Assembly: GCF_020085105.1 (NCBI RefSeq)
Contig: NC_058055.1
Location: 15,687,822-15,751,821 of the forward strand
Reading direction: 5' to 3'
Length of the DNA: 64,000 nucleotides
Source of the DNA: Siniperca chuatsi
Lineage: Eukaryota > Chordata > Actinopteri > Centrarchiformes > Sinipercidae
Program-made: the position numbers and the translations under genes
Part shown: positions 7,426-47,904 of the stretch, in pieces
Layout of the letters: every line of letters begins with the position of its first letter
Position numbering within the stretch: position 1 is the stretch's first letter
The notes under the pieces: model-generated
Told to the model about the DNA's origin: nothing
Database searches by the model: none
What the model saw: only the letters and a program-made list of their open reading frames with translations

Positions 7426-8253
7426 CTGATGTTCTCTTCAGGATTGTTTAGCAGCAGCTCTGTTTGATGCTGCATCCAAAAGCAGCAAACCGATGATTGC
7501 ATGTCTGACCTGTGTGCACTGGAAGATATACTTTCCTCATTGATCTCTTGAGATAAATCTTCCAGCTGAGTCTGACAAAGTCATTTTGCAATACTCTATT
7601 AATGAGATTAATATGCTTACTCTGATTAAACGTCTCTTGCATTCAAAACAAAATCTATTTATATATAGTTTTGAATGATGATTAAGTGAGTTGGAGCATC
7701 TCACAATACTCTTTTGGATACATGGAAGATTACAAAGTGAGCAAACAGCAAAGTATTCCCTAAAGACACATGTATCATTAAACAGGAATGTTAATATACG
7801 TATTATACGAAAATACATACTGCTCTTTGGAGTCACCAGCTTATGTTGTTCTTGATATTGCTTTGATTTCTTGCATTGCAGTTCCCAGACCCCTTTTATA
7901 AAACAGTGGTTTTTTAAAAGAAATATCACAGATTTTACAGTTTGGTAGTGGGAGGCATCATTTACTCATTTGTAGTTTTAGCTGTTGAGTTTTTGCTGTG
8001 CTAGATTTTCTAAACCTTGTCTATGCAGTCACTGAGCCATATACATGCCATGTATGGAGCACTTTCACTGAAATGTACTGATACTGGAATAAGTCAGTGA
8101 ATCTCTCATTCAACAATTTGTATCCACCCTAAATCCTAAAATCAACTGAGATTCCTTTGAGATCTGTTATCTGCTTCTGTTTAAAGTAGTGTAAGATCTG
8201 AATCGCCGATTAAATATTTCTCTCTGACACAGTTAAGACACACAAACTGCTAC
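7426..8253 (-). promoter_or_regulatory. OR2 upstream exon and presumed promoter region
   Basis: This non-coding stretch is shared with OR3 (17154-17990) and OR5 (27283-28140). It contains the 5' UTR exon next to the donor, rich in CAG/GCTGCT. A TATATAAAT-like motif reads on the minus strand near 7655-7668, but that motif is not kept in the OR3 and OR5 copies. No coding sequence is evident. Confidence 0.4.
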
Positions 8254-17153: not shown

Positions 17154-18060
17154 CTGACGTTCTCTTCAGGATTGTTTAGCAGCAGCTCTGTTTGATGCTG
17201 CATCCAAAAGCAGCAAACCGATGACTGCATGTCTGACCTGTGTGCACTGGAAGATATACTTTTCTCATTGATCTCTTGAGATAAATCTTCCAGCTGATTC
17301 GTACACAGTCATTTTGAAATACCCTATTAATGAGATTAATATGATCTATAATGAGGTTGTAGCTTACTCTGATTAAACGTCTCTTGCATTCAAAACAAAC
17401 ATCTAATGATTGTTTTGAATAATGATTAAGTGAGTTGGAGCATCTCACAATACTCTTTTGGATACATGGAAGATTACAAAGTGAGCAAACAGCAAAGTAT
17501 TCCCTAAAGACACATGTATCTTTAAACAGGAATGTTAATATACGTATTATACAAAAATACGTTCTGCTCATTGGAGTCACCAGCTTATGTTGTTCTTGAT
17601 AATGCTTTGATTTCTTGCATTGCAGCTCCAAGACCCCTTTTATCAAACAGTGTTTTTTTAAAAGAAATATCACAGATTTTACAGTTTGGTAGTGGGAGAC
17701 ATCATTTATTCATATTTGTTGAATATTTGTATTTTTAGCTGTTGAGTTTTTGGTGTGCTAGATTTCCTAAACCTTGTCTATGCAGTCACTGAGCCATATA
17801 CATGCCATGGATGGAGCACTTTCACTGAAATGTACTGATACTGGAATAAGTCAGTGAATCTCTCATTCAACAATTTGTATCCACCCTAAATCCTAAAATC
17901 AACTGAGATTCCTTTGAGATCTGTTATCTGCTTCTGTTTAAAGTAGTGTAAGATCTGAATCACTGATTAAACATTTCTCCCTGACACAGATTTTTTACTA
18001 AAGAGTATTTATCCCTGTACGCGTTATTGCCTGACTAAATTAAAACAAAGTGAATACTGG
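17154..18060. promoter_or_regulatory. OR3 upstream exon and 5' flank
   Basis: This repeats the OR2 and OR5 upstream regions. The homology to the other units stops near 18060 (GTGAATACTGG). In the OR1 and OR5 units it continues directly into the LINE flank (TTTAACGTGGTATGGG). Here the coa4 locus intervenes and the LINE flank resumes at about 20098. No coding sequence is found. Confidence 0.45.
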
Positions 18061-25183: not shown

Positions 25184-25282
25184 AGTTGAACTCCACAGGC
25201 TGCGTCTGTTTAAAAGCTCTCCAGTCTAAAGAACAAGGAAATCATATTATATTGTACATTAAAACATGGACTTCTATGCAGG

Positions 25283-27047: not shown

Positions 27048-27104
27048 AGTTGAACTCCACAGGCTGCGTGTTGGAGGACAGCATCTGTTTAAAAGCTCTC
27101 CAGT

Positions 27105-27282: not shown

Positions 27283-28384
27283 CTGATGTTCTCTTCAGGA
27301 TTGTTTAGCAGCAGCTCTGTTTGATGCTGCATCCAAAAGCAGCAAACCGATGACTGCATGTCTGACCTGTGTGCACTGGAAGATATACTTTCCTCATTGA
27401 TCTCTTGAGATAAATCTTCCAGCTGATACTGACAAAGTCATTTTGCAATACCCTATTAATGAGATTAATATGATCTATACTGAGGTTGTAGTTTACTCTG
27501 ATTAAACATCTCTTGCATTCAAAACAAACATCTAATTATAGTTTTGAATGTTGATTTAGTGAGTTGGAGCATCTCACAATACTCCTTTGGATACATGGAA
27601 GATTAAAAGGTGAGCAAACAGCAAAGTATTCCCTAAAGACACATGTATCTTTAAACAGGAATATTAATATACGTATTATACAAAATACATACTGCTCTTT
27701 GGAGTCACCAGCTTATGTTGTTCTTGATAATGCTTTGATTTCTTGCATTGCAGTTCCCAGACCCTTTTATAAAACAGTGGTTTTTTAAAAGAAATATCAC
27801 AGATTTTACAGTTTGGTAGTGGGAGACATTATTTACTCATATTTGTTGAATATTTGTATTTTTAGCTTAGTTTTTGGTGTGCTAGATTTCCTAAACCTTG
27901 TCTATGCAGTCACTGAGCCATGTACATGCCATGGACGGAGCACTTTCACTGAAATGTACTGATACTGGAATAAGTCAGTGAATCTCTCATTCAACAGTTT
28001 GTATCCACCCTAAATCCTAAAATCAACTGATATTCATTTGAGATCTGTTATCTGCTTCTGTTTAAAGTAGTGTAAGATCTGAATCGCCGATTAAATATTT
28101 CTCCCTGACACAGTTAAGCCGCCATTGCACAAACTGCTACTTTTAGATATCTGTTTACAAGATTTTTTTTTTACTAAACAAAGATTATTTATCCCTGTGT
28201 GTATTATTGCCTGACTAAATTAAAACAAAGTGAATACTGGGTTTAACGTGGTATGGGTATCATCGGACAATCCATTATTCATTTGTAATTCAAAAATGAA
28301 AAAAAACTTAAATCTGTTATTTGTTTCAAAACCCAGTACAAATTTGAGGTATTTGTACTTTACTTGAGTATTTCCATTATAATC
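27283..28384. promoter_or_regulatory. OR5 upstream exon and 5' flank
   Basis: This repeats 7426-8253 and 17154-18060, then continues (TTTAGATATCTGTTTAC) as in the OR1 unit into the LINE flank. It is the uninterrupted version of the unit. No coding sequence is present. Confidence 0.45.
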
Positions 28385-29763: not shown

Positions 29764-31449
29764 TATTAATCACCCCCAATCCTGCCTTTTTAAATGCGGA
29801 TCACCCGCTCAGGGATTCTTTGAGCAATTTTTCTGCTGTTACTCTGCCTTAACTCGCAGTCATCATGTCTCTTATGAGAGTGTCCTTCAGCCCTCTGGAC
29901 AAAATCCCAACTAGGTTTTTATTGGAAGTTATGGATTGTATTGCGCCCCTTTTACAAATTAACAGCTCGCTTTCTACTGGCTGCGTCCCTGATTTCTTTA
30001 AAACTGGTTGTGTCCAGCCAGTCCTAAAAAACCTGGGCTTGATCCCACCCTCCTGGATAACTATCGCCCAATCTCCAAATTGCCTTTTATTTTGAAGATT
30101 CTTGAAAAACTTGTATCTAAGCAGCTTCTTGCTGCTGTGGAAAACAATTATACATTGAAAAGTTCCAATCTGGCTTTCGTCAACACCACAGCACTGAGAC
30201 AGCCCTTCTCAAAGTCACCAATGACCTTTTAATGAATGCAGACGCAGGCATGTGTTCAATTCTTGTGCTGTTGGACTTAACTGCTGCCTTTGATACAAGT
30301 GATCATGGCATTCTTTTAGATAGACTGAGGCACTGGGTGGGCACATCTGGCACTGCACTAGACTGGTTCTCATTTTATCTGTCCAATAGGAAATTCTGTG
30401 TCAGCATTAATAACTTCATGTCATCCTTCTCCCATATCAAGTACAGTGTGCCTCAAGGTTCAATTCTGGGACCAATACTGTTCTCCTTGTACATGCTTCC
30501 TTTGGGTGATGTAATCTGCAGACATGGTATTTCTCTTCATTGTTATGCAGATGACACGCAGTTGTACCTCCCTGTAAAGCCCACTGACCTTAGTATGCTG
30601 AGTTCTCTGCAGGACTGCCTGTCTGACATAAAAAATTGGATGTCGATAAATTTTCTTCAGCTCAACTAAAATAAAACTGAAATCCTTGTTATTGGGCCCC
30701 AACACATCACTAAACAAATACTGCCATCTACTGGTAACCTGTCACAACATATCAAGCCTGTTGCAAGAAATCTTGGTGTCCTGTTTGATAGCAATTTATG
30801 TTTTGAGCAACATATCACTAAGCTTGTCCAATCATGTTTTTATCACCTCAGAAATATTGCAAAAATCCGATCTATTTTAAATCTTAGTGATGCAGAAACT
30901 GTTGTACATGCTTTTATCTCCTCACGCCTTGATTATTGTAACAGCCTGTTCACTTGTCTTAATCAAAAAACTTTGACACGACTGCAGACTGTACAAAACT
31001 CAGCTGCTAGGCTGTTAACCAGGACAAAGAAGTACGACCACATAACACCTGTTTTAGGCTCTTTACATTGGCTCCCTGTTGGTTTTAGGATTGATTTTAA
31101 AATCTTGTTGATTACTTTTAAGGCTCTTCATGGCCTGGCCCCAGATTATATTTTAGACCTTGTAATCCCTTATGAACCTTCACATAGTTTGAGATCTTCG
31201 GGCATGGGTCTCCTGTCTGTTCCTGAGTCCAGGATGAAAACTAAGGGAGACAGAACTATTGCTATCAGGGCACCAAGGCTCTGGAACAACTTGCCCGAAG
31301 AAATTAGGTTGTCTGAGTCAGTGTCTTTGTTTAAGTCTCATCTCAAAACACATTTTTATCTGAAAGCATATCCTGTTTTTACCTGAACTGGCTGTTTATT
31401 TTACTGTTTATTTTATTGCTTTTGTGTATTTTATGTATTTTATTTCTTG
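29764..31449 (+). mobile_element. L2-type non-LTR retrotransposon, 5'-truncated and decayed
   Basis: The plus-strand frames encode parts of an L2-like reverse transcriptase. Motifs are LDNYRPISKLPFILKILEKL (30008-30232), [36 protein letters not shown] and [11 protein letters not shown] (30232-30669), then the tail RLQTVQNSAARLL, GSLHWLPV, FKALHGLAPDYI and LWNNLPEEIR (30973-31386). The catalytic YADD motif is present, but several frameshifts and stops break the ORF. The flanks show that about 100 bp of the OR-unit sequence (equivalent to 6013-6110) are missing at the insertion. Confidence 0.88.
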
Positions 31450-31507
31450 ATATTTATGGCACACAGTTCAGGCTCTTTACTGACCGCACAAACATATTGG
31501 TCCTAAA

Positions 31508-31836
31508 TTATTGCTGTGTTTTATTAACCCTCCAAGGATAGCTTTTTTGTTGGTATGTTTGTTGTGTGCCAATTGTATTTTTTTTTACCAGTGCCAGGGC
31601 TCTGGTTTTAATCTCTTTGGTGTTCAAAGAATATACAACAGGATGGATGCAGGGTGGGAGGCAAGAGGCCAGCGACAGACTCAGCACACGCTGGTCCGGG
31701 TCAATAGATCGCACATAAAGCAAATTATGAATATAGGACTGTAAAATACACCAACAAGGACTAGGTGCTCAATGCAAGTGGCGAGAGCTTTCATCCTACT
31801 GCTTACTGATTTCATCCTGAACACAGTCACCAGGAC
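31508..31836 (-). pseudogene. OR6: odorant receptor 3' fragment
   Basis: Only the TM6-TM7 and tail part of an OR remains, reading LYVRSIDPDQRVLSLSLASC, IHPVVYSLNTKEI and the tail NTIGTQQTYQQKSYP. The TM6 side is OR7-like (YVRSIDPD, and upstream the RMKSVSSRM region) but the tail is OR1-3-like, so it is also a mosaic. A small deletion near 31722 (CATAAAGCAAATTATG) breaks the frame. OR homology stops at CACCAGGA near 31836 and unrelated sequence follows. The L2 element lies immediately 3' of it. Confidence 0.85.
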
Positions 31837-32145
31837 AAGCAGACAGAGTTTAATAACTGTGAGTTCCCAGGATTACTCACGTTGCAAAGAATTTAGGAGC
31901 ATCCACAGTGTAATCACTGCTTTATTTGCACAGTTATGTTTGTTTTCAGGAAATGTAGAGGAGGCAGGAGGAGATTTTGTATAGAAATCATTATTGAATA
32001 TACTGACAAAGATGTATAAAAAATTACTTTTGTGACACTTTCATGAGACGCTGTATACAAATGTAAGAACTCACAAAACATTTTGTGTTTGTTCAGAATG
32101 AATAAACAGTGACAAACACATGTAATGATTTGTCTATTGCATAAT
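31837..32145. other. Spacer without recognised gene
   Basis: The sequence is AT-rich and non-coding. Nothing is recognised beyond the left end of repeat copy A. Confidence 0.3.
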
Positions 32146-32385
32146 GTTCCCTGAGGATGCATTTATCATTAAACAGGCCATGGTGAGCAAAAACAAAATG
32201 GTTTTAATGAGTCCAGTTTATGATGCCAACACCAGAGAATTTTGGTTAATGACCTTGACTTTAACAAACAAACCATTTACTGTGTAATCTTCAGACTAAT
32301 TAATCTCAATTGCACCTATTAGGAATAAAAACAATTAAAAATGGAGGGAAATGGGTGTGGGTGTGCATTCAGTCGTTTCATTTAA
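32146..32385 (+). repeat. Local conserved element, copy A of five
   Basis: This shares with copies B-E, in the same order and orientation: TTCCCTGAGG at the left, TTATCATTAAACAGG, TTATGATG, GGTTAATGACCTTG, AACAAACAAACCATTTACTG, CTAATTAATCTCA, ATTAGGA and TGGAGGGAAAT. It is non-coding, with no terminal inverted repeats or poly-A tail. It is the copy closest to the OR array, between OR6 and OR7. Confidence 0.7.
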
Positions 32386-32640
32386 ATTACACCAGCTTCC
32401 AAAGGGCCGCAGGGGAAACGCCAGAAGTGCTTTTCCTTGATACTCCACCAAGTGTCCTCTGACTACCTTTTGTTTAATCAAATGACATGTTTAAGCTCTA
32501 ACCTACTAGTTCTGCTTTGTTTGATAAATTGTAGGCCTTCTTAAAGGACTTACAAACACAATAATTTCCATTCAGACTTTAAAGTCAATTTACCATTGGC
32601 TACTGTTTGTAGCTGTTGTTGTGGAGAGATGTTAGAGTGA

Positions 32641-32815
32641 TGGGGCTGCCACATAGTCAGGCGCCCCCTGAGCAGTTAGGGGTTTGGTGCCTTGCTCACG
32701 GGAACCTCGGCAGTGCCCCGGAGGTAGATTGGCTCCGCTCCAACTACCAGTCACTCTGACTGGTCTGTGTTGGACTTGAACCGCCCCCCGGTTCCCAACG
32801 GTCTGAGCAAAAACT
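32641..32815 (+). repeat. SINE-like dispersed repeat
   Basis: The segment CCTGAGCAGTTAGGGG, GGTGCCTTGCTCACGGG and TTGGACTTGAACCGCC resembles a widespread fish SINE-related sequence; GGACTTGAACCG looks like a tRNA-type word. Boundaries are approximate. Confidence 0.4.
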
Positions 32816-33242
32816 CTTTTTGTGACTATAGAACTCTAAAGCTAGGTTTAAATTACAGGTCTCATTTCAGTGGATATTTTATTTGTAATTATTTGTAATT
32901 ATATTATTTTGTCCAACATGGTGCTCATTTGAAACATTGACAGATGTGCATGCAGTAAAAGCTATCAATGACATGCATGCTTAGCCCATTGAATGACTTG
33001 CATATGTTGTTCATGGTAAACTTTGACTTTTTGGTTTTGGTTTTGTGCAGTCACAAAGAGTCACAATTACACATTTTAATTATCCCTCTGCTCATATTTT
33101 CTTTGAGCACTGCACTGAACTGCAGCACAAAATGTTTCTGTTTAAGCAGTTAATATTCATCCATCCTGTGTCTACAGAAGTATGATTGACGTTTTTATAA
33201 ATTTTAAAAAGTCAAAAAAGGTTAAATATTCATCCTAGAAAG

Positions 33243-33940
33243 TGATATAACATAATGGCAACATACATATCTGAGCATATCAGTTCATTTCTCTACATAT
33301 CACTTTCTCTCTTGAAAGTCTTAAAGAATTTGAAAGAACCAGAAATAAACAAAATAACAAACAATTTAAGTCAACCTATGTTTTCATATGGAGGGCGGTT
33401 CATTGTGGTGTAATGAACCCTGGGAACTAGCTTAGCTAAACTTAGTTCATTATGATCATTATGAAATTGCATTTCTGATGAGGAACAACCAGCACACTGA
33501 CTTAAAAGCTCTGCAAGTACTTCAGGTAAACACAGTAATGAGACCTTCTGTTCTATCAGACAATTTATGAGGAATATAAATGTGACATACAGTAAAATAA
33601 AGTCAAGGAGTGTTTCAGATAGGAGCGTTTGGCGTAACAGATAAGGGTGAGAACAGTCAAATGTACAAATGTCACTGAATAACATGCAAATACAACCAAG
33701 TATATTTTATGTCTCAATACCAGTAAGTGGGCATATATGGTTACAAAAGAATTGGGACATGTATTTTATTCACTTGTTGAATTTCGCAAGCATTTAAATA
33801 ATGGCAGAACATCAAATAAAGATAAATATGAAGAAAAACATGCTGAATAATAAGGAATGAATAATATGACACTGCAAATGTGTGGAAACCTGGCTGTTTT
33901 GAAATGCTGATGAATCAGACAAACCATCCCTGTCTCACCA

Positions 33941-34008
<68 letters not shown>

Positions 34009-34088
34009 CCTGCCTGTTTCCTGAGAGTATTAAAACCTTCCACAGATTGTTTTTGGATGGAAAGGAAAGTTGTCAAGGGCTTGTTTTC
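33243..34088. repeat. Recent segmental duplication, copy 2 (3' flank of OR7)
   Basis: This is near-identical to 25283-26100 and continues into the shared 3' coding part of OR5/OR7. The homology begins at GATATAACATAATGG, the same AACATAATGG edge as at 25288. Confidence 0.85.
33944..34006. repeat. (CA)n microsatellite
   Basis: About 31 CA units, roughly twice the length of the duplicate array at 25986-26018. Confidence 0.95.
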
Positions 34089-35035
34089 ATTCTTTGGACC
34101 AGTACCAGGGCTCTGGTTTTAATCTCTTTGGTTTTCAAAGAATATACAATAGGATTGATGCAGGGTGGGAGGCAAGAGGCCAGCGACAGACTCAGCACAC
34201 GCTGGTCCGGGTCAATAGATCGCACATAAAGCCCAACTAAGAAAATGCTGAATATAGGAATGTAAAATACACCAACAAGGACTAGGTGCTCAATGCAAGT
34301 GGCGAGAGCTTTCATCCTACTGCTTACTGATTTCATCCTGAACACAGTCACCAGGATGCTGACATACGACAGAACAATAAAAGTAAAGGGTGCCATCAGA
34401 TTCACAATACTAGAAGTTGAAGCCACAGACCACTGCAATGTGTAATCATTACAAGCGAGTCTAAACACAGGTGCATAGTCACAGAAATAGCTGAACACTC
34501 TGACCGAATTGCAAAAAGACAGTCGAGTCATGATTGCCGTGCTATATGCTACTCTGCCCAGACTGTAAACCCAAGTCAGGCCGACAATACAAGACATGAT
34601 CGGCAGTGTGTTGAATGAGTTCTGACGCAAAGGGAAACATATTGCGATCAACCGGTCATAGGCAAGTATAGCAAGTGCACATGACTCCAGAGATATAACA
34701 GAATAGTAGACAAACATTTGTAACAGACATAGGTTGAATGGAACAAAGTTGTCCTTAAAGATGAATGTTTTAATCATGCTGGGAATAGTGCTTGTGTTTA
34801 AGATTACATCAATTACTGCGAGGTTGACAACAGCCAGAAATTTTGGAGTGTGTAAGCCGTGGTCTCGGGCAATTATGTAGATCAATAAAATATTGAACAC
34901 TAGTGTAACCACATAGACAAACGCTAGAAAGATGATGTAGACACTGATGTAGGAAAATGTCTCAAATCCGATGATATAAAAGCCTGGAGGATGAATGATG
35001 ACAGAGTTGTTTAAAACAGTCCTGAGAAAAGACAT
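34073..35035 (-). CDS. OR7: intact odorant receptor-like GPCR, 320 aa
   Basis: This is an intact odorant receptor-like frame with its start at 35035 (MSFLRTVLNNSVIIHPPGFY). It is the most diverged member of the array. TM2-TM4 differ from the other copies (IIARDHGLHTPKF, TSTIPSMIKTFIFKDNF, WVYSLGRVAYSTAIMTR), while LAYDRLIAICFPLR, the ECL2 cysteines (SFCNSVRVFSYFCDYAP), SYVSIL, KALATCIEH and INPIVYSLKTKEI are kept. The tail is short (VLVQRMKTSP). The upstream acceptor TCTTTTTCAG and donor ACAG|GTGAGC indicate the same two-exon structure as its neighbours. It is the likely donor of the 3' half of OR5. Confidence 0.9.
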   Translation of the reverse strand: MSFLRTVLNNSVIIHPPGFYIIGFETFSYISVYIIFLAFVYVVTLVFNILLIYIIARDHGLHTPKFLAVVNLAVIDVILNTSTIPSMIKTFIFKDNFVPFNLCLLQMFVYYSVISLESCALAILAYDRLIAICFPLRQNSFNTLPIMSCIVGLTWVYSLGRVAYSTAIMTRLSFCNSVRVFSYFCDYAPVFRLACNDYTLQWSVASTSSIVNLMAPFTFIVLSYVSILVTVFRMKSVSSRMKALATCIEHLVLVGVFYIPIFSIFLVGLYVRSIDPDQRVLSLSLASCLPPCINPIVYSLKTKEIKTRALVLVQRMKTSP

Positions 35036-35102
35036 AGTTGAACTCCACAGGCTGCGTGCTGGAGGACGGCTTCTGGTCCACGGTGCGGAAAAGCTCTCCA
35101 GT

Positions 35103-35288
35103 CTGAAAAAGAGGAAAACAGTGCATCTTATTTCTTGTCAAGTTACTCTTTCCAATCACATACTTCAAACGAACCCATGTACACTTCTGCGTTTGGCATG
35201 AAACCAGATTTTCTCATCCTGAGTGATGAATATAATGTATCATCATTAAGTCAAACACGTAACAGAATACAGTGTACTTCTGGCTCAC
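35103..35288 (-). other. OR7 predicted 5' UTR intron
   Basis: The minus-strand donor is ACAG|GTGAGC (exon 1 ends at 35289). The acceptor is TCCTCTTTTTCAG (exon 2 from 35102). The 186-nt intron is diverged in sequence from the other ORs but keeps the same place and size. Confidence 0.55.
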
Positions 35289-36000
35289 CTGTTCTGTTGA
35301 TGATCGTTTTACACAATGTGACTCCATATGATGCAGACTCCAATAGCAGCCATTGAATGCCTGCATGTCTGACCTGCATACAATGGAAAATATACCCTCT
35401 TCATAAATCTCTAGAGATAGCATGCAGTCTTCTAATTAAGAATAATACTGATGAACAATACAGTAATGAACAGGGCCCCATTACTGAAATTGCAGGTTTA
35501 TCCATGGAGTGTATTGTCTTCCAACTTGTCTTGCAGACAAAACAAACGTAATTATTGTTTCTGTAATTCTAAGCACCTCATTACTCTTTATCTCAAGAGC
35601 AAGAAAGTGCAATCAGCAATGTTTGGAACAAAAATGTAACTTATATTCACATACATATCTAAATTGTTTGACTCCTAGTTTCATCTATAAGTCAAACATC
35701 ACCATTTTGAAATTAATTATAATCAAATTATAGGCCAGTTTTATTCTTGTCTTTACAAATATTAGTGATTTAAGCAGACCTGTATTTCCATCAGACAACA
35801 TTAATAACTTAGATTGTTGTACTGTTAAGTCCATGTGTTAAGAGACCTGTCAATCGAGTGGGAGTAATAATCAATTTTGCCTTTTAATAAGGAATTAATA
35901 AACAAATATATATGAAATAATATAGCCGCAAGAGGCAGTTCAAGCCAACACAGACTGTTAGAAGTTTAATGTTTTTCATCTGGTCCTGGTCAAATGTGGC
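35289..36000. promoter_or_regulatory. OR7 upstream exon and 5' flank
   Basis: This is the right edge of the OR array. It has weak similarity to the other OR upstream exons (CATGTCTGACCTG near 35362, ATAAATCTCTAGAG near 35404). The rest is AT-rich with no gene. Confidence 0.4.
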
Positions 36001-36600
36001 CTAAACGTAACAAAAATAGTGAAATCTCTCTTTTTTGATCTGATCTGATTCATAGTATGATTCATGTTATGCCACACACATTTTTTGTCCTTGTAGCGCC
36101 CCCTAGCAGTCTATTTGAAGGAAAATTTCAGGGCATGTTTCAGGTTTTTATGTGGAAAATATTCTTAAGTTTTGTGATGATTGGTCCAACGGTTATTGAC
36201 TTTGGTCTATGTATGTGCTGCAAATAAGATATCAACAAGCTTTAAACAACTTTTGATAAGCTTCGTCCAATGATCCACCAAAAATTTGGTAGCAATCAGA
36301 CCTACGGTTTAGGAGGAGATGTCAAAAATGTGTTTTTAAAAAAATTCTAAATGGCTGAAATTCTAGTTAGGCAGACTTGGTGGTCCAAGAGGCTTTTTTG
36401 TAGAGCACATTGAGCTGGACTTGTGGGCATGGCCTGTAATTACAGCAACAACATGTGGCCGATTTGGCTCATATTTCTGTGGAAGGATGCACATCATTTC
36501 CAGTTATTTGGCCAAGTTTTGAGTTTCTAGCTCATTCCAGCTCACGGGAATTTGAGCCGCAGCATAAGACAAATAATATACAGTGACTTGATTTAACTGT
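36001..36600. repeat. Probable dispersed fish repeat
   Basis: The text resembles a repeat often seen in fish intergenic DNA (GTGATGATTGGTCCAACGGT, GTGGCCGATTTGGCTCATA, TTGGCCAAGTTTTGAG). No ends, ORF or domain are visible. Confidence 0.3.
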
Positions 36601-37085
36601 CCTTGCTAGTAAGCCAGTTTCAGTGAGACAGCAGAGTCAAAGGTAGATCTACCCTTGATATAACTGTCATCATGATTTTAAGAGAATGTGTACTTTGCTC
36701 ATAAATATTTACACTCTTGTTAGTACATAAGTAAATCTGATTTAGGAAAAGGGCATTACAGATGAACAGTTCCTAAATCAATGTTTCTCTCCTAATTACA
36801 CAAGCATCCTAACGTCCCAATATCTTAAATAAACTGTCCTAACTTTAGGATAGCCATCAAGCTGTCATATTCCAAGGAGGCGTGGCATGCCCTTTTGTGT
36901 AAACTGACCCAAAACCTAATTTTTCTGTAACATTTGGGTGATTAGGAGAGCAAATCTTATCATTGATTTAGGCTAGTGTATGCATATTTATTGTACAATA
37001 TAATTCATACTGTAATTTCACATGCACATTTTCCTTTTCCTGTTCATCTTTATGAATTAAGACTCAATGTTCATTTCTGTTTATT
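36601..37085. other. Spacer flanking the DDE_1 relic
   Basis: The sequence is AT-rich and non-coding. It may be the left part of the same transposon, but no inverted repeat was found with 37420-37800. Confidence 0.3.
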
Positions 37086-37420
37086 ACTGAAGGTTTAGAA
37101 ATCCATCCACAATTTATGCTGCTGTGTCCATCAAGCAGCAGCACATGTGGATGGGGTCTTCTTTGGGCAGGTGGGCTATGACCTGCTTTCCCTAGTCCAA
37201 AAACACCTCAGAGTTGATCCATCTATTGTCTTATATTCTGACAAGGGTGTTGTTTGGTGCCCCAAAACACCAGTCAGCCCGGAGCCTTTTTCCTTTGAGT
37301 ATGACAAGTAGCGGCCCATACTCTCCTGCTGCATTGAGACACGCCAGCAGCGTTGTTGTTTCTCCCCTCTCATTTGCAGTGATTTCAAAGCAGGTCGATC
37401 CTACTTCAGCCAAAACTCTT
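37086..37420 (-). mobile_element. pogo-type (DDE_1) transposase fragment
   Basis: Minus-strand frames read ITANERGETTTLLACLNAAG, GPLLVILKGKRLRADWCFG and, in another frame nearer 37090-37140, HVLLLDGHSSI. These are the first-Asp-downstream region and the LDGHSS block of DDE_1 superfamily transposases (pogo/Tigger/Jerky-like). The frames shift and the third acidic residue is not seen, so it is a dead remnant. Confidence 0.6.
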
Positions 37421-38898
37421 GTAGACAGGAAGTGGTCCTGTAGGCCTGTTTATCACACATGTGTCCTGGGAGGTCCTGGATCCCGAGCTCAGTAATCATT
37501 TCGCTGTAAGAAGCAAACCACTTTCTGTTTCACACAGAAACAGGGTTAAAGTTCTCCAGCTTGCTCATACTAAGGCCTGGGTTTCTCTTTAGAAATCCTT
37601 GAAACCAGTAGTGACCAAACCCCCAAACCATGATAAAGACAAGATGAAGTACGATAAGATAGGATCCCTAAAGTTAGTTAGGATTTTCTTTTGTAATACC
37701 AAATTGGGAAAATCCTATCGTAGACTCTTCCTGTCTTAACTTAAAACTTAAGATAGAAAGTTTCTGTAATACAGAAATCTCTTGACCAGTCAGGTCCCTC
37801 AATTGTCCTGATGTAAGCCAGAGATGGTGCTGGTCTAGACCTTATTGACCTATCATGATTAGAAAGAAGACAACATCATTGTTAGTTTCTAAACCTAATG
37901 GCTTGTGGCTGAAGTTTGTTGGAAAGTTCAAAATGCAGAGTAGGTTTATTTCTCGACAAAGAGAGAACAAAACTATTAACATTAAATCAAAAATTCCAAC
38001 AGAAATTGTGTGTGATAACTTAAATCAAATAATGCATGAATACAGGAAACACACAACATGGCTGAGGAGGAACAAAGAATGAACCAAGGGAGGGAGGTGG
38101 GATATTTAGCCTCTTGTTAGGTAAAGTGATTATAGTTGAGCAACTTTAGACATACGCCATCTTAGATGATGGCTCAGAAAAATCTATTATTCTACCTGGT
38201 AAACATCTAGAAGTTAAGGGCGACTGCAAGGTCCTCAGTCTTAAAACCATCTGACAGTTCTGCAAGTGTAAGGAGCCACAGTAGCTTTCCATATATCACC
38301 AGCAGGAGACCTGTCAACAAGATATCATTTTCACTGTTAATGAACTTAGTTTGATGGATCATTCCTGTTCAGCTGCTGCACTACAACTACGTTACCCTCA
38401 CCTCAAGAGTTTACCCTCGCCTCAGCTCAACAGAGTTCAGCCACTTATTCTCATTGGACCTGATCATCCTCATCTCGTCAATCCCATTGAACCTGTGCAC
38501 ACTGGCCCTCCAGGAGCCCCATCCGGAGTCTGTACAGCTTTTGGATGGGCTATGCAAGGGTCTTCAGGGCTGAACCTGCCTACCTCACAAGGGCAACTTC
38601 TGCACTGAAGGATCAAACAGCTGTATCATAGAATGTCTGAGGTTGAAGCACAGTGTAATCAGTAGCTGACGTGGAGACAGGAATGAAAATAAAATAAAGC
38701 TGCTCTGCGTTTTGAACTTGGACTCCTGCCTCATCCATGGGTCTCTCAAACACACCTACCTACTAGGCATCACGTTCAGAACCTAAGATTATCGCACACA
38801 ATTCCTGTTGAGATATTTGATTTAATGTTAATAAGAACTATAAATCTTTATATGACTTGAAGTGAGTGAAAAACAAAAAAATGTATAATGCACCATCT
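37421..38898. other. Intergenic, no gene recognised
   Basis: The sequence is AT-rich. A stretch near 38690-38780 (AATAAAATAAAGCTGC then TTGGACTCCTGCCTC) looks like the polyadenylation and downstream part of an LTR, but no LTR ends were found. Confidence 0.3.
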
Positions 38899-39165
38899 TC
38901 TCTGAGGGGGCAATTATCATCAAACAGTACGTAATGACTCAAGGCAAAAGGACTTTCTGCTGCATCTAACACCTTAGAGTCTTTCTAATGAACCCAGTTT
39001 GAGATTTCATCATCCAAGAACGCAAGTTAATGACCCTTACCTTAACAAACAAACCATTTACTGTTTAAACATTTGCCTAATTAATCTCACCTGCATCTAT
39101 TAGCAGGTCTTGCAGTCTCATATTTGGAGGGAAATTGAAGGGAAATTGGGGCCCTGTGCACTGCC
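38899..39165 (+). repeat. Local conserved element, copy B of five
   Basis: This contains TCTGAGGGGG, ATTATCATCAAACAG, AGTCTTTCTAATGA, GTTAATGACCCTTACC, AACAAACAAACCATTTACTG, CTAATTAATCTCAC and GGAGGGAAATT in the common order. It lies 330 bp before copy C in direct orientation. Confidence 0.75.
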
Positions 39166-39440
39166 AGCTTTTCACCAAGAGTATCTCTTCAGAAACAAGT
39201 TAAGTTTCTTACAGTACAGTAACAATACAGTAACACATCATTTGATATTTTGATCTCCCATATTCAACCATGACTAATAAAAATACAATACTAAGTGAAT
39301 GACTATGTACTGTTAAATTATGGGAAAAATAGAGATAGAGATAGAAACATTCATTCATTCTCTTAAAAAAACTTACACACTTTGTTTAAACTTGGAGTGT
39401 ATGACATAACAAAATGTAACGACATTGACAATGAATACTA

Positions 39441-39722
39441 TTTCCCAAGAGGGCTTTTATCACCAAACAGGACACAGTGACCCCAGACAATAGGATTCTC
39501 TCCTGCTTCTTTGACTCCTGGGAACCCTGCTAATGAGCCCTAATTGTGATGTCATTACCAAAGGATGCTGGTAAATGCCTGTAACAAACAAACCTTTTAC
39601 TGTTCAGACTTAAGCCTAATTAATCTCATCCGCAAACATTAGGAGGTTTTTCACTATCGCAATTACAACTGTAATGAGAAGGGACTTTTACAGTGATATT
39701 AATGAGTCATTAATGTTCTTGA
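39441..39722 (+). repeat. Local conserved element, copy C of five
   Basis: This contains TTTCCCAAGAGGGC, TTATCACCAAACAGGACA, TGACTCCTGGGAAC, CTAATGAGCCC, GTGATGTCATTACC, GCCTGTAACAAACAAACC, CTTAAGCCTAATTAATCTC, ATTAGGAGG and AATGAGTCATTAA. It is close to copy E over its whole length. Confidence 0.8.
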
Positions 39723-40315
39723 AAAGCTCATTGTCTAATAGTCACCTCCACTCTGAAGGGCTGTAGGAGTTAGGCCTGCAGTCTCAGCCCCTAGAAGCCT
39801 ATGATGCCCTTTCTGAAGTCGCCTTTCTATTATTAGTAGGCTAATAACTTTAGATTGTGTTCACAGTTACTTGCTGCGTTGGCACTGGACACAAACAATG
39901 TACTGCAAAATCATCAAAATGAACGCAATTCATTGGATACTGGGCTGACAGCTCTCAAGACATCTAGAAACTAGTTGTGTGCAGCAGAAAATTCTAAATT
40001 CTTCTTAACAACCTGAGAAAAGAAAAAAGTTGTTGGTTATGATGTTCTGGGTAACCACAATCAACCAAAAATGTACCATCTGATGTTATTTTAAAGGTAT
40101 TTAAAGCAAGGTGTACGTGAGCTTTCAGAAACGTCCCTCTAAAACAGCAATATGTTATAAAAATGGTAAAAAATATAGGTGGCACTAGCAGTGATGTAAT
40201 GCCAACTATTCAATGTGACTTTAAGGATCCACCTCATGTCCAGATGTTTGTGAGTAAACGTATGAAAACCAGGAATAATGCAGGGGGGTTGCTAAATTTG
40301 TGAGGGATAATAATT
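39723..40315. other. Intergenic, no gene recognised
   Basis: The sequence is non-coding. Nothing is recognised. Confidence 0.3.
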
Positions 40316-40680
40316 AGGAATGCACCAATCCAACTTTTTCTCTCCCAATACCGATTTTGATACCTCAGTTCAGAGTATCTGCCGATATCGAGTACCATTC
40401 TGATACCAGTGCTCTCTTTTCCCCAAATTTAAAATCTGTATGCCTCACTGCACATGACTGATTGGGACTGTTTTTATGTAGGGTAACATGAGACCAGAGG
40501 TTGCTATGGCACTAAAAGCAGAGTCAGTGGCCAAAGGAATATAATGGATAAAGTATTTTTTAAAATGACATTGACAAAGAAACTGTATTTAATGTAGATC
40601 GGACGCAACTGGCAACCTGATCCGCTCAATCAGGTCAGTATCAGGGCTGATACTGATCTGGTGTATCGGTGCATCCCTAC
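40316..40680. mobile_element. hAT-like non-autonomous DNA transposon
   Basis: Imperfect terminal inverted repeats are AGGAATGCACCAATCC at the left and the complement of GGTGTATCGGTGCATCCCTA at the right. The interior carries the GATACCAGTGCT / GTATCAGGGCTGATACTGAT pattern usual in such fish elements. It is too short to encode a transposase. Confidence 0.55.
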
Positions 40681-42500
40681 TACTAATCTGGCTTCCTATG
40701 TAATGTGTATTTAATTCATGTCATATTAAGCTAAAATATCTTTTTGGTAGTCATTAACTGTTTACCACCCACTGTTCTGCCCATGGTACACTGGCACGAT
40801 GTAGAACTTTAACAGACTGCTAGTACTATGAGGTTACATGAATATAAACATGTAATAAATGTATCTCTATTTATTTGTACACTAGATTCGACTCTCGACA
40901 GTGTGTACAACTGAAACCTTAAAAATACGGTGTCTCCATACTTTCAAAGCAGTCTGGAAGTCCAACAATGTAATACAACCTTAAAAACGTTTTGCCCAAA
41001 TTCATCACAAGGGTCTGACAATCAAAATTTAGATTGGCCATCGTGAAAAAGTGGCGAGAGTGTTAAAGGATCAAGGAGACTTTGAAAATAGGGAAAGTTA
41101 GTGATAAGGCCCAGCCAAGAGCCCAGCATGATCCATGAGAACAAAGCAGATAAGAGCTGTCTTCAGTAGTTTATTGTAGTGTACAAAGTCAGAAAAACAC
41201 AATATAAAGTTATAAGCTAAGGAAGGGCCATTTGCTCAATGCTAAAATTGCACAAAAAGAAATCTGTGGTTAAAGACAAATGTCTCAAATGTCAAACCCA
41301 CACTAAAACGTGAAGTGAAGGAACTGTGCTAAACTGCTGTTTTAATATCACTTCCTGTTTACACAACATGAGAAGACTGGGTACACATTCTTTTTAATTA
41401 GTTACAGAGGATTGTAACATTAAGCTTTCATATTATGAGAGTTTACAGGAAGGGGGGCTATTTGATGGTTTGTAGGTCTGTTTTAAATTAAGTTTCAGGT
41501 TTTCCTCAAAATGTAATGTTTCTTGGAAATATCTGCATTCCCACTTTCCCACACATTTTTAATGAATTGGGGAAGAGAAGAATTAGGCAAAAGGTTCAAC
41601 AGTAGAGGGTTTCTTTGTTTGCAGACAAGGTCATTAAGCTTCGTTCCCCGGTGATGTGATCACGATCGGGACTCATTAGAGAGACTCTGAGGAGTTAAAG
41701 AGGCACGATCCTTTTGTCTTGGGTCATACTGTACATCTACGACAAGGCAATAAATAATGATGTGATTAATGTCTTCTGGGTTCCCTGCTATGCAACTGTA
41801 TCATATGTTCAAGTCCATGCTTGAACAGTACACTGACCTTGGCTAACTTGTAATGTCATAAACCCATGACAAATCCTGTCTCGATGATTTGTACCAGGAG
41901 AGCCTGGGCTGGGCTTTGATTTATGTAGGTTATTGGGTAAAAATAGATGCCTGGACTACAAGCTCCTGATAAGGCAAGACTGAGCAACCCTTGAATTGAT
42001 ATGGGCAGAGAGGAGAGCTCCAACAGTGGATTTAGAGTTTCAGGACCATGGATAGCGACATATAGCACAGGTTTTGGTGTAACAGTTGGCCACAGGCTGA
42101 TAGGAGGGGTTTCAAAGTGTCTACATTTTATGTGAGAATAACATACAATAATAACAACCTTCTCCTGCTGTTAACTCAGAGTACCTATGATTTATGGCTG
42201 TACCTAAACTGTCTGATCTACATTTTTTTTAATCCTGACGTTGATTTATGATTCTTTTCGCTTCAAGGTAATGGATATAAAATGAGCACTAGATATAATT
42301 GACTTTCTCTGGGGAGTCAGTGACAGTGAAGTTAATTGACTTGAATATTGCAGAAAATCTTAGCAGTACCAACTATCACCCCAAACTTCACATTTATCAC
42401 CCAAAAGTGAGATTTACTGTATATAAATGTATTTTTCCCTGCACTCATAACACTTGCTGTATAATGTAAAAATCTTTAGAATTTGTGTGAATTTTGCATT
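40681..42500. other. Intergenic, no gene recognised
   Basis: AT-rich, non-coding sequence. The short ORFs have no recognisable domain. Confidence 0.3.
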
Positions 42501-42725
42501 TATGACCAACATAATATGATGAAAATCCATATAGTATTCCCTTTACCATCAGACAAGTGCCTTCAGAAAACACAACGCTCTCCTGACCCTTTGACTCCGG
42601 GAACTTTCCTAGTGAGACTCATTTATGATGTCATTATCGGAGGATGTTGGTTAATGATCTTGCCTGTAACAAACAAAACCTTTTACTGTTTAGACTTCAG
42701 CCTCATTAATCTCATTTGTAAGCCT
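42501..42725 (+). repeat. Local conserved element, copy D of five
   Basis: This contains ATAATATGATGA (also before copy E), TAGTATTCCC, TTTGACTCCGGGAAC, CTAGTGAGACTCATTTATGA, TGATGTCATTATC, GGTTAATGATCTTGCCTG, AACAAACAAAACCTTTTACT and CATTAATCTCAT. The 3' part after the homeodomain-like block is not kept. Confidence 0.75.
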
Positions 42726-45380
42726 TAAAATATAATACAAGTATTGCAATTTTGTGATAGCACCACCGTGTGGCCAACATGGGGAATTGGCCTTGTCTCA
42801 AAAGAATCACAGATACCAGATTTGCAAACATGTTCAGCATTATCCTGTCAATCTGAAAAAATACAAAAGAGATCCTATATATATATACTGTATGTATACA
42901 GTATACAGTATATATCACTGCTTGTACCAGTAATAAGAATATCACACTCTACTATATTTTTTTAATCCTATATTTAAATGATTATCGGTAAGATGACTCT
43001 AAAAAGCTTGGTTGTGACTGAGATTTTAAAGCCTGACTTCTGTGTTCTGGTGTCGGTGTAGATTATGCTACAGAACAGTTAGATATCATAGCATATACAT
43101 GAAAAATAAAGATAATAATAAGCCAAATGTAGCCAAATGGCCACAGGGGGGCAGTCGTTGACAGTTTAACCATTTTAATGGTAAAGGCCAAGAAGGGTGC
43201 AAAAAGTAAGTGTGCACTCAAATGCACACTGAATGACATAATAAGGTTGTACTCATCTGAACAAAATAAACTACAGAACATAATGTTGGAGCTGAATGCA
43301 TCCGTTTAGTATTATATTATCAACAAAGTTTGTCTAGTCGTTGAGTGGATTTTGCTGTCAGGGATTTTATGTGAGTGTGGTAAAAAGATTAAACCATTTT
43401 GACAAAATTGCACTATCTGCAGGTGCTTTACAAGACTTCAGCTTTGTTCTTTAAAGTTTAAAATACAAATATAAATGGGTGAAAGTATTGTACTGTAATG
43501 GCTTGTACTGTGGTTGCATGTTGAAATTCAGGTTATAATAGTTGGCTTGAGACTGTACTGAGAGGAAAGAGCTCTTCAAATGCTCAGAAAGTGACAGACA
43601 GGTTGTCAAAGCAGATGCTGTTTTCTCTGAGGTAATGGGCCGATGTTATGAACGGTCAGAGGATAGACTGCTTCTCTTGAGTGAAGGACAGCATGAAATA
43701 TTCAAACTGGTGAGACGGCATTTTTTTCACAGACATTTGAAAGAGAAGCTGCGCATCACATATTCGTACTGCTCAAACAGACTCGCTGGCAGCTAATTAG
43801 CAGAGCTACAGTAGATGGTGGTGTGATTAAGTGGAACGAGATTTAATGAGCGCTAAACATTAAGTAATTAGGATGAATAATTGTCATAAGGCATTTAAAT
43901 GCTTTCTTATCATCTTTTAGAATTGCATCAGTGATTTAAAAAAAGTATGAAATATATTTGTGTGTGTTACTGTAATTAAGGCAATGCCACAGTGATGTGC
44001 TTTTGTCAAATGTACCACAGAAAATGAGTAAATGATTTACAACCTAAGTAAGAAATGTAGAGCTGTTTGTCTGATAAATAGATAGAATAAATATAATTCT
44101 GTTTAGAAACACAAGCATATGAATGCTGTGTGTACTTAATACAGAATGCAGTTATGTGAAAGCCAGGACATTACCCATAATTGGTATTTTTGACAGCCGA
44201 TTAGATGAGAATTTATCTTCATCTGAAGAAGAATAGTTTCTTAAAATGGATATTGTACAGTGTCTTAGGGTCACTGTATATTAAGTGACCCATATTCGTA
44301 AAAAAAAGACGTGCTAAAACAAGGTGGACATAGATTAATAAACATCTGCATGCCAATGTTTCTACCTTCACTACTGATTTCAAGATGTCATGCAGGTTTC
44401 AAACTCAGACACGAGCATGGCTTAATAAATCCACAACAACTGTACACCTCAGACATCTAATTATTAATTCAAATATTGATGGAGTGATTCCTGGTTATAT
44501 TTCCTACTTGTCCTTGAGAGGACAGCCCAGCCGGTAAAAGCTTAATTAATACCTCTTAGCAGAGAGGCAGCTACTGAAGGGTATTCAGTGCCGTAGACAG
44601 CAACTTGTAAAAACTGCTGTGGGTAAGGTTTTTATGAAATGAGGGTACCATAAGGTCATCAGCAAGTTTGTCTGTGATGCACAAAGAGGCACCCATGATT
44701 AGTTGAGTTCTCGGTTCTATGAGATTCACATTTTGATAACTACCCTGGTGCCTGGGTTATATCTTGTGCATCAGCGACACCTTTTCAATCACTCCGTTAA
44801 CCTGGGATGTGAAGGATATTAGTGATTCTTGTTAACCGAATTATCTAATCCAAAATGAGCACCTGTGCTCCTTGCTGGAAAGAACTTGATTGAAATTAAC
44901 GTGTGAAATCGGAGGAATTAATATTTGTCCTACAGTGAGAGATTAAGGTCAGAACTCTCTCTGTGTATCTTTCTCACAAGCTCATTCCATGCACTGACTA
45001 TTTCCTCTCAGAAATCGACAGGCAAGTCAACGGGTTTAATTAGTGTATAAATCTGAGACACCTGTACAGCTTATTACGACAGAATCTGTTCACCTGGTCA
45101 AAGGCCAATTGACCAGCCGACTGTGGTTATCCACAGTCCAGGATGAATCAAAACCACATTTGAGCTTAGAGGCCAGACAGAAGTTCACAATATCATACTT
45201 CAGTGCATTGGTTCCCATGGTTTGTAATTACACTGCTGAGTAGCCAGAAAATGGGAATATTGACTGGAGTAGTGCAGATGTAAGATGGGATTGATCTCCC
45301 AGTTTGAGATGCATGTTAATTCAGTCAGTACTTTTATGATAGTCTCCATTGGACTACGGCATGTGAGATTTGGATGTGTG
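42726..45380. other. Intergenic, no gene recognised
   Basis: The sequence is AT-rich, with a palindromic TA-rich stretch at 42876-42915 (ACTGTATGTATACAGTATAC). No ORF has a recognisable domain. Confidence 0.3.
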
Positions 45381-45706
45381 AAGCAAGTCAACAAAATAAT
45401 ATGATGACATGTCAAATGTATGGTATTCCCTGAGGGTCCATTTATCATCAAACAGGACATGGTGACCCCAGACAAAAGAATTCCCTCCTGCCTCTTTGAC
45501 TCCTGGGAGTCTTTCTAATGAGATCCATTTATGATGACATTATCACTGAATGCCAGTTAATGACCTTGCCTGTAACAAACAAACCTTTTACTGTTCAAAG
45601 TTAAGCTTAATTAATCTCATAAGAACGTGTTAGGAGCCCCAAGCCCACACTCTAATAATTAAAACTGGAAGGGAATTTGCACACTGATAATGAGTCATTA
45701 AGGTTT
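45381..45706 (+). repeat. Local conserved element, copy E of five
   Basis: This is the most complete copy. Upstream is ATAATATGATGACATG; then come TATTCCCTGAGGGTCC, ATTTATCATCAAACAGGAC, TTTGACTCCTGGGAGTC, CTAATGAGATCCATTTATGA, AGTTAATGACCTTGCCTG, AACAAACAAACCTTTTACTG, CTTAATTAATCTCATAAG, GTTAGGAG, and AATGAGTCATTAA near 45700. Confidence 0.8.
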
Positions 45707-46027
45707 TAAGTAAGTAAACATGGTAATTGTCAAATGGCCAGCCCTTTTCTGACACATGTTCAGAGCTGTGTGTGCTTCAGCAGTGGTTTAATGAGCCTTC
45801 GTTGACTTGGCTTATTCTCTTGCGGGAATCCCCGTCACCATCTTAAGTGACGTTCCAATCCTCCAAAATCTGAAGTCTAATCTCAAGCTGACTTCGGTGA
45901 GATCAACCCTTTAAGGGCTGAGAGAAAGGGTGAACAATGACAGACAGTAGAGGAGCATATTTGCCCAGAATGCATTGTGATTTTTCACAATTTCCTCTGT
46001 ACTGTGGAATATCAATTGATACATAAC
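45707..46027. other. Intergenic, no gene recognised
   Basis: The sequence is non-coding. Nothing is recognised. Confidence 0.3.
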
Positions 46028-46345
46028 ATAGGGCTGGGTATGGTTTGAAATTTTTCAGTACCGGTGGCAACACGATATCGAAGTTCCAGTGCCGATATAA
46101 AAACAATAATTTCTTTGATACCTCACAATGAGGTTTTTTTTCTAATGAACAAAATATCAATCTTAAATTAATCTGTGTTTAATTTTAACACAAAGCAGCC
46201 GTACAAGAACATTGCCTAAATAAAACAGTCTAAAATGAGCAAAGTTAATATTTCAAGATTTAATCAAAGAATAAGTTAATAAGACTAAGAATCTGATCAG
46301 ACATTCAATGCCAGCTTTCGGTACTCAACAGTTTTCCATACTAGA
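46028..46345. mobile_element. hAT-like element remnant
   Basis: It begins ATAGGGCTGGGTATGG, a usual start of a fish non-autonomous hAT element, and continues with CAGTACCGGTGGCAAC and CGATATCGAAG. The right end, near TTTCGGTACTCAAC, lacks the matching terminal repeat. Confidence 0.4.
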
Positions 46346-47904
46346 GCTACACCGCAAAATTGAACAGACTGATATACTAGCCAATATTAGCTTATTGCAG
46401 ATTCAGTAATCACCAGACTATAAACTAGAAGTTCATGTCACATCATGAACTTCTCACATTCCGCTTCCCAGGACGCCAATTTCACCTGGGCAGGCAACAA
46501 ACATTTACTTACATTTGTGTGACTGCACCCATAGTGGCTTCACTGCAACTTCTAGTCTGAAACAACCAGTGACGCATGTGTAAAGGTAACGATCTTCTTC
46601 CATCAGTGGTTGATGGGCTGTGAGACATCAGACACTCAGACAACTCATTATGGTGAAAATGTTTCTATGGAGACAAAATGGAGGCCATTTAAGTAGTGGC
46701 CTGAAGTTCAGATGCTTAGATATGATTAAATTCTCTGATAGCAGCAGCTGTTCAACCATAAAGATAATATTTTCACCTTCATTTTAGACATCTCCCCTAG
46801 TTTGCAGTTGGGCTTTGGCATCCCAGACACTCATGTATAGAGCAAGACGATGAGTCATCGTTTTGCATAAGGCAAGGACATTTGGTGCCTGGACTAAAGA
46901 ACTCTAATGAATCTTTTCTCTACTTCCCTTTTCTTTATCTTTCTTTTTACTGGGCTCAGCTTAAACCCTGTCTCTGCGTCCTTACAAAGTCACTCAAGTG
47001 GATAAAGTCATTTACCTGTATGAAGAGGAGCGAGAGACGGGAATAGACAGACAGAGAGAGGGAGGGTGTGTCGTGTAGGGCAGAGGGGAAGTCTTTGACA
47101 AATACTGTATTTGTAAGGAGAACGTAGCAAAACTTAAGAAGAACAAAGAAATGGAGCAATGCCAAGTGAAGTGCACGGAGAGTGCAGAGTTGAAGCCTGA
47201 ATAGTCTGAAAAGACAAATTCAGTCTTGTTTTTTTGGCCAACAACAGAACATTGTGTTGCTTCTGCCTCTTTATTTTGTCCCAGAATCCCCCAAAATATA
47301 AAAAGCTGATGGTTGAAGAGAGAAATACCACACAGGGGAAAGAGAGAGAAGATGGCAGCTTGAAGATTGTTAAAGTAACAAAGGAAAGATTATTAAATAT
47401 CAGTTACATACAGTGAATGTCCGGTGTCCATTTAACTGAACATATGGAGCAAAATTGCCGAAGAGACAATGTATTCTTTAACATTAAAACAGAGTGACAA
47501 AGACTCTAGTGTGTGTGTTGGGTGTGTGTGTCTGTGTTTCTAGCTATTTGAGGCCAGATATTTTCAGATATTATCCAGATATTTTGTTTCATTCTTTCTA
47601 TGTCTATACGAGATAAACATTATCATCTCTATGTTTGGGGTTTTCCTGCCCAATTCACCTATTTGATGGCGGTTTAATTTGGATAATCAAATGTTACTCC
47701 AATCTCACTCGGTTAATTATTAGATGACAAAAAATGTATGTGTTCAATAACGTGTCACTTCACTATTCGATGCATAAGATTAACCCATAACTCTAAGAAT
47801 TACCTCAACAAATGCTTTTGACACAGTCACATTACAGTATGTGCTACATTATAGACATTTATAGGTAGTTGCACATCAACAATGGACTGTTTAAATGAAG
47901 CCTA
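46346..47904. other. Intergenic, no gene recognised
   Basis: The sequence is non-coding, with a short GT-rich tract at 47511-47540. No conserved ORF. Confidence 0.3.

Follow-up and report, generated by a model that had tools for sequence, protein, structure and literature searches.

Our analysis of an odorant receptor (OR) cluster in Siniperca chuatsi revealed a family of seven related non-coding elements that are probably locally multiplied control elements, since the searches made located them solely in and beside the OR cluster and they carry binding words of the mammalian OR type. Six copies of an element of about 215 bp (E1 to E6) lie in the window, that is, the 64,000 nt of assembly GCF_020085105.1 at NC_058055.1 positions 15,687,822 to 15,751,821, forward strand, of the chromosome referred to here as C14, and a seventh, shortened copy (E7) lies outside it. 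Judged from its sequence, the element probably represents a locally amplified cis-enhancer family of the locus-control type, with seven copies serving one teleost OR cluster. This reading builds on properties computed here: the homology and number of the copies, their restriction to the cluster within the searches performed, conservation that falls in clumps, enrichment of homeodomain sites, and one shared upstream word.

Results

The OR cluster occupies 15.62-15.72 Mb of C14, and all seven copies found, at 15.657-15.733 Mb, are intergenic, in or beside it. E1 (32146..32329, plus strand) has no middle block and is placed 3' of the OR gene at 34073-35137, at a distance of 1.7 kb, and E2 (38897..39110, plus strand) lies 5' of the entire minus-strand OR array. 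E3 (39440..39649, plus strand) is 79% identical to E6 (45425..45640, plus strand), the copy nearest the consensus; E5 (42527..42735) is on the plus strand as well, and E4 (41553..41764) is inverted, on the minus strand, as seen in the inverted pairs I1, I2, and I4. Profiles built with the copy in question left out recover every one of E1 to E6, at E values of 9.8e-31, 6.4e-42, 9.5e-53, 4.3e-31, 1.5e-35, and 1.5e-57, respectively. The profile of all six copies recovers E7 (C14 15,657,319-15,657,456), some 63 kb to the left of E1, at E 5e-19. Pairwise identity among the elements is 59-79%, and across the seven copies their size ranges from 140 to 215 bp.

The first-pass annotation of this DNA had reported five homologous segments, and alignment and profiles confirmed all five as real, homologous cores of a family that is bigger than stated, comprising six copies in the window, where E4 had been missed, plus the partial E7 outside. 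Two segments given as starting at 42501 and 45381 are real, with cores that begin 26 and 44 bp further right, and the description of a single orientation throughout fails for the family because E4 is inverted.

Conservation along the alignment is clumped by column, with a lag-1 autocorrelation of 0.27 (0 of 5000 permutations as high), supporting the earlier impression that the blocks are better kept than the sequence between them. The maximum over 12 or 16 columns gives p 0.005 and p 0.015, and that over 8 columns is not significant (p 0.15). The most conserved block is AACAAACAAACCWTTTACTGT. AATGAGTCATTAA, listed previously as a shared block, is present, in two copies only, E3 and E6. Downstream, the TAATGAGTCATTAATGTT block 3' of E3 (39700..39717, plus strand; from D10 and a 58-bp BLAST piece) is common to E6 only, with an intervening spacer that aligns poorly, and the TAATGAGTCATTAAGGTT block lies 3' of E6 (45688..45705, plus strand; from D10). 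Flanking DNA is common to E1 and E7: the element parts of this pair are 82% identical (107/131), their left flanks 75% over 120 bp and 68% over 280 bp, and their right flanks 68% immediately to the right and 76% in one block. No frame of at least 150 aa overlies any copy, in keeping with the reported lack of an ORF. A non-coding RNA or tRNA-derived element was rejected, as the Rfam scan of 30000-48000 (no family at gathering score), the tRNA search of the window (none), and the weak consensus RNA fold (-1.03 kcal/mol) give it no support.

Is the element an ordinary repeat? The first-pass annotation had looked to the genome-wide distribution for an answer, and four DNA queries against 718.8 Mb (the 719-Mb genome) gave zero matches away from the OR cluster, so that the regulatory reading withstood the refutation which that annotation had set for it. 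Four of four matches to E2 and five of five to E6 lay inside the window; all six matches to the six-copy consensus, at E up to 10, were the six window copies, E4 among them; and E7 matched itself and E1 only. Of 81 candidates for a control repeat 270 bp from E1, 40 were scored matches, 39 of them lying elsewhere in the genome. Set against this control, the queries make a dispersed repeat unlikely. The sensitivity of these searches was limited, since the consensus missed E7 and single-copy queries missed E4, and diverged copies may hence exist elsewhere, for example in other OR clusters. Units of about 200 bp in both orientations with short conserved blocks, in a window that holds transposon remnants, are what one might expect of an interspersed repeat (SINE, MITE, or solo fragment) inserted several times near OR genes by chance. 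We regard this origin as quite unlikely, given the four queries set against the control repeat, the absence of inverted arms of at least 18 nt flanking the copies, and left flanks that in all 10 pairs compared (among E1, E2, E3, E5, and E6) outscore the random-pair mean, so that the element ends are not sharp. The earlier remark that inverted ends are lacking holds at this length: inverted pairs of at least 18 nt in 31000-47000 stemmed either from E4, being an inverted copy, or from unrelated sequence, with no terminal inverted repeats flanking the copies.

The copies are rich in TAATKR, the homeodomain consensus known from OR enhancers of mammals, with 23 occurrences in the six cores where 3.63 are expected (SD 1.85; 0 of 500 shuffles as many), counts that are not independent because the copies are homologous. 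Each core has three to five such sites (four in E1, five in E2, four in E3), E7 has three, and three aligned positions are each retained in five of six copies. Ranked against GC-matched windows taken from 264 kb of sequence, E1 to E4 fall in the top 0.11-0.23% and E5 and E6 in the top 3.2-3.8%; within the window and without GC matching, the copies reach only the top 0.9-4.9%. The O/E consensus YYYCARRRR is mildly enriched in the cores (7 vs 3.08 expected, p 0.026). The regulatory reading of the first-pass annotation is partly supported, homeodomain enrichment being strong and the EBF part weaker: of the C3/G3 words likened to EBF sites, the left GC-rich word bears a loose O/E-like match in four of six copies (E1, E2, E3, and E6), and the strict palindromic core TCCCNNGGGA does not occur anywhere in 32-46 kb. 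E5 has an O/E-like site at another place, and E4 and E7 have none. The proposed nuclear-receptor-like word, TGACCTTG, is exact in three of six cores.

One word connects the elements with the OR genes themselves. The homeodomain-like 11-mer ATTAATCTCAT occurs at 11 places in the 264 kb, three in elements (E3, E5, and E6), eight upstream of minus-strand OR units, and none elsewhere. It thereby marks 8 of the 11 minus-strand OR 5' ends listed, including those with the word at 7602..7612 (355 bp upstream of the OR frame beginning at 7247), 17330..17340 (upstream of the OR at 15903-16976), and 27459..27469 (upstream of the OR at 26085-27104), each on the minus strand. Because the OR units that carry it are recent duplicates, this sharing amounts to about one independent event. 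Matches of at least 1 kb between OR units show 84.5-99.6% identity, whereas the elements are 59-79% identical. A test for words common to the elements and the OR upstream regions gave p <0.05 in two of eight settings (0.039 and 0.042) and 0.057-0.23 in the other six. There is also a weak TATTCCCT...CATTAAACAGG resemblance between the two. A left-block resemblance in OR upstream regions, at E 0.045 in one left-out profile, at E 0.86-0.92 for the top four under the seven-copy profile, and not among the best non-element matches with the six-copy profile, is a lead only.

The shared 11-mer and the weak TATTCCCT...CATTAAACAGG resemblance, together with the position of E1, which has an OR fragment on one side and an OR gene on the other, could also mean that the copies are what is left, now functionless, of OR promoters or 5' regions after old turnover of the array removed the coding parts. 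This is unlikely in our view: the blocks are still clumped and conserved at 59-79% identity, homeodomain sites are retained at aligned positions, and the promoter stretch is oppositely oriented relative to the element and weak in the profile search. Moreover, a tblastn comparison of three window ORs with 35.2-47.5 kb gave no sign of OR coding sequence (best E 3.0), and hidden OR coding remnants beside E2 to E6 were rejected on this basis.

The arrangement of the copies bears on which genes they might serve. E2 to E6 form a group on the upstream side of the minus-strand OR array, with PREB beyond them, and E1 and E7 lie within the cluster, 3' of OR genes, E7 between two OR subarrays. With a PREB-like exon 2.6 kb from E6, the copies could regulate a neighbor, either PREB or the gene for an LRR membrane protein to the right, rather than the ORs. 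PREB, however, is a housekeeping-type secretory gene, two copies are internal to the cluster, and the 11-mer is common to elements and OR upstream regions, all of which makes regulation of a neighbor very unlikely. Among the 12 entries listed in a search for teleost synteny papers with PREB, none contains the word preb. Likewise, five of seven copies at the cluster edge would suit insulator or boundary elements separating the OR cluster from PREB, but E1 and E7 are internal and only four of six copies retain an O/E-like match at the left GC-rich word, so that we give a boundary function hardly any credence. In position and module number the family would fit a locus control region, in which several modules upstream of a gene array exert dominant control over it.

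Discussion

We propose the following model for the family as local enhancers of the OR cluster. Local duplication of a cis-regulatory module would have produced the seven copies, E2 to E6 occupying what would be the position of a locus control region between the OR array and PREB. Homeodomain factors, of the LHX2 type by analogy with the mouse, would bind the recurrent TAATKR sites; some copies would add an O/E-like site, and further factors may sit on AACAAACAAACCWTTTACTGT. The copies would jointly act on OR promoters, many of which bear the same homeodomain-like word, and this joint action would raise the chance that one OR of the cluster is chosen. In this scheme we infer factor identity, enhancer activity, target genes, and the role in choice. 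A bolder and rather doubtful extension is that enhancer copy number is itself the device: a cis array of seven, older than the present ORs, might set the frequency with which the cluster is chosen and maintain choice in cis, where mammals employ a trans hub of many different islands, and AACAAACAAACCWTTTACTGT might bind a factor new to OR choice.

What is the relevance of such a family? Mouse OR enhancers are well described, and seven related copies in one cluster would constitute a natural experiment in how enhancer number bears on receptor choice, directly testable in fish. The element grammar, three homeodomain sites around a conserved block, lends itself to searches of other teleost OR clusters.

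The mammalian J element is single, has a core of 430 bp that is shared from platypus to human, and is reported to have given no reporter expression in zebrafish olfactory epithelium. By description, the present elements resemble J in being intergenic at an OR cluster and in having several TAATKR sites, an extra conserved motif and, in some copies, an O/E-like site; J and E7 each lie at a junction between two OR subgroups. They differ from that one element in being seven divergent copies of 140-215 bp in one teleost cluster. The extended homeodomain site of J, AACTTTTTAATGA, occurs 62 times in the window with up to 3 mismatches (46.3 expected; 1 of 100 shuffles had as many), a count that we left out of the evidence, and the J-specific motif AAACTTTTC was discarded, as its resemblance to AAACCTTTTAC was only a loose one, judged by eye.

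Homeodomain sites in intergenic OR-cluster elements are likewise described for H and P (PMC5638857) and the mouse Greek Islands, 61 of 63 of which have composite LHX2/EBF or very close sites (Monahan 2017, PMC5608512). Unlike these islands, which are spread over many clusters, the present copies form one local family in which the O/E-like site (YYYCARRRR) is absent from E4 and displaced in E5. Precedent for local duplication of OR elements, and for resemblance between element and promoter, comes from rat Sfaktiria, a predicted duplicated pair as opposed to seven copies here, and from the P element, which resembles the P3 promoter (PMC6744719). A mammalian study suggests that teleosts may use uncharacterized, teleost-specific enhancers for TAAR genes (PMC8213717). 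In zebrafish, an enhancer near the or111 subfamily cluster acts with an OR promoter (PMC5809090), and this is, like the family reported here, a teleost element adjoining an OR cluster.

Results

Six copies of a non-coding element, E1 (32146-32329), E2 (38897-39110), E3 (39440-39649), E4 (41553-41764, minus strand), E5 (42527-42735) and E6 (45425-45640), align over a core of about 215 bp in the window (C14:15,687,822-15,751,821). The first-pass annotation had described five direct copies at 32146-45706, next to an odorant-receptor array, and proposed their alignment into a profile; the repeat search recovered all five, together with an inverted partner, E4, and the family is hence not of a single orientation. 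A profile built from any five copies refound the sixth, with E values of 9.8e-31 (E1), 6.4e-42 (E2), 9.5e-53 (E3), 4.3e-31 (E4), 1.5e-35 (E5) and 1.5e-57 (E6), and no place in the window outside the elements scored better than E 0.045 (7753-7787).

The copies are 59-79% identical pairwise, and their conserved alignment columns are clumped, with a lag-1 autocorrelation of 0.27 that none of 5000 permutations reached. The top 12-column stretch starts at AACAAAC-AAACC (p 0.005); the best 16-column stretch has a p of 0.015, and the best 8-column stretch is not significant (p 0.15). Outside the core, left flanks lie above the random-pair mean in all 10 compared pairs and right flanks less regularly so (10 pairs; E4 and a seventh copy, E7, left out of both). 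Past a poorly alignable spacer, E3 and E6 have an 18-bp TAATGAGTCATTAA block in common.

Searches ran at three scales: the window itself, a surrounding region of 264 kb, and the complete assembly to which it belongs (718.8 Mb in 65 contigs). Used as a genome-wide DNA query, E2 matched four places (E2, E6, E3, E1) and E6 five (E6, E3, E2, E5, E1); with E values up to 10 allowed, the consensus recovered the six window copies, and E7 recovered itself and E1. All matches of these four queries fall within this odorant receptor (OR) cluster, and none was found outside it in the 718.8 Mb, an absence that is no proof of rarity at a sensitivity at which E7 escaped the consensus query and E4 the single-copy queries. 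A dispersed control repeat adjoining E1 (32600-32820) gave 81 genome candidates; the 40 that were scored match at 73-100% identity, and 39 of these lie elsewhere in the genome. Searching with a window OR protein gave at least 114 scored matches out of 344 candidates; they lie in this cluster and in further ones on C7, C12 and C14, and the coverage of those further clusters is that of the four DNA queries alone.

In the sequence flanking the window, 150 kb on its left and 50 kb on its right, the six-copy profile detected one further copy, E7 (C14 15,657,319-15,657,456; E 5e-19), at the point where a plus-strand OR subarray gives way to the minus-strand array. The plus-strand subarray (about 15.6248-15.6518 Mb) represents another subfamily, whose proteins are about 38-41% identical to that of the window OR; the two subarrays are arranged tail to tail, and E7 marks their junction. 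E7 lacks the right end of the element and shares flanking DNA with E1, so the two look like a segmental duplicate. Their identity is 82% in the element part (107/131 positions) versus 68-76% in four flanking stretches, which modestly suggests conservation of the element beyond its flanks.

Motif consensuses were taken from Iwata 2017 (PMC5638857). The homeodomain consensus TAATKR occurs 23 times in the six cores (3-5 per core), a total that none of 500 shuffles reached (mean 3.63, SD 1.85) and that does not amount to six independent observations because the copies are homologous. A site is found in 5/6 copies at each of the alignment columns 98, 140 and 192. Against GC-matched 210-bp windows drawn from those parts of the 264 kb that hold neither elements nor ORs, E1-E4 rank in the top 0.11-0.23% and E5 and E6 in the top 3.2-3.8%; when every 215-bp segment of the window is taken for comparison, individual copies fall in the top 0.9-4.9%. 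The O/E-like consensus YYYCARRRR occurs seven times versus 3.08 expected (p 0.026), including the left word of E1, E2, E3 and E6, and no palindromic TCCCNNGGGA occurs between 32 and 46 kb. TGACCTTG is exact in 3/6 cores, the forkhead-like TGTTTRYT is present in 5/6, and all four occurrences of AACAAACAAACC in the 264 kb lie inside an element.

OR genes and broken OR copies occupy 24-2498, 6172-7247, 15903-16976, 24252-25225, 26085-27104 and 34073-35137, all on the minus strand. To the right of the array there is an exon resembling PREB, which is its best solved match (E 5.6e-29), as well as an LRR membrane-protein gene. Given the strand of the ORs and the position of this exon, E2-E6 occupy the interval from the array's 5' end to PREB, and E1 sits between the last OR gene and an OR fragment. 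The OR frame from 2498 reads on, with no stop codon, into a Pro/Ser-rich repeat (824 aa); since stretch 1-1497 recurs at 3464-4980 (98.2% identity), the repeat may have replaced the OR tail. Retroelement-like frames between OR units (9265-9720, 30121-30669, 14059-15302) include Pfam matches to an integrase core domain and reverse transcriptase, the last frame being assigned by eye and by an ALKBH8_N match. Immediately left of E2, inverted arms at 37974-38833 (45 nt, 89% complementary, 770 nt apart) are possibly a MITE-like insertion.

Discussion

What links the elements to the OR upstream regions? Within the 264 kb, ATTAATCTCAT has 11 occurrences: three in elements, eight upstream of ORs and none elsewhere. 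The upstream occurrences lie 335-355 bp 5' of the frame in eight OR units (genes or broken copies; 11 minus-strand OR 5' ends were listed), and this sharing counts as about one independent coincidence because the upstream regions are recent duplicates. With duplicates masked, word sharing across eight settings gave p 0.042 for 11-mers present in three or more copies, 0.039 for 10-mers in two or more and 0.057-0.23 in the remaining six. A longer left-block resemblance is not secured. An approximately 91-bp stretch upstream of ORs (7465-7555 and matching places), about 76% kept between diverged OR units, shortly precedes a GTAA-type donor-like site and is consistent with a putative non-coding first exon.

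OR units are 84.5-99.6% identical (matches of at least 1 kb), far above the element copies, which therefore look older than the present OR copies or faster evolving. Confinement to the cluster, greater divergence than among the OR units, the clumping of conserved columns, a homeodomain grammar and the shared upstream word together lead us to favour a locally amplified family of candidate enhancers of the OR cluster. We infer enhancer function, bound factors and a role in receptor choice.

Among the matches listed, from a literature whose subscription part lay mostly outside the scope, no title deals with a family of OR enhancers amplified in fish; PMC5809090 mentions one teleost enhancer, close to the or111 cluster of zebrafish. 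In mammals, precedents for OR enhancers comprise the H, P and J elements and the Greek Islands, with the TAAR enhancers as a further case; the P element resembles a nearby promoter, and the predicted Sfaktiria pair of the rat provides a precedent as well.
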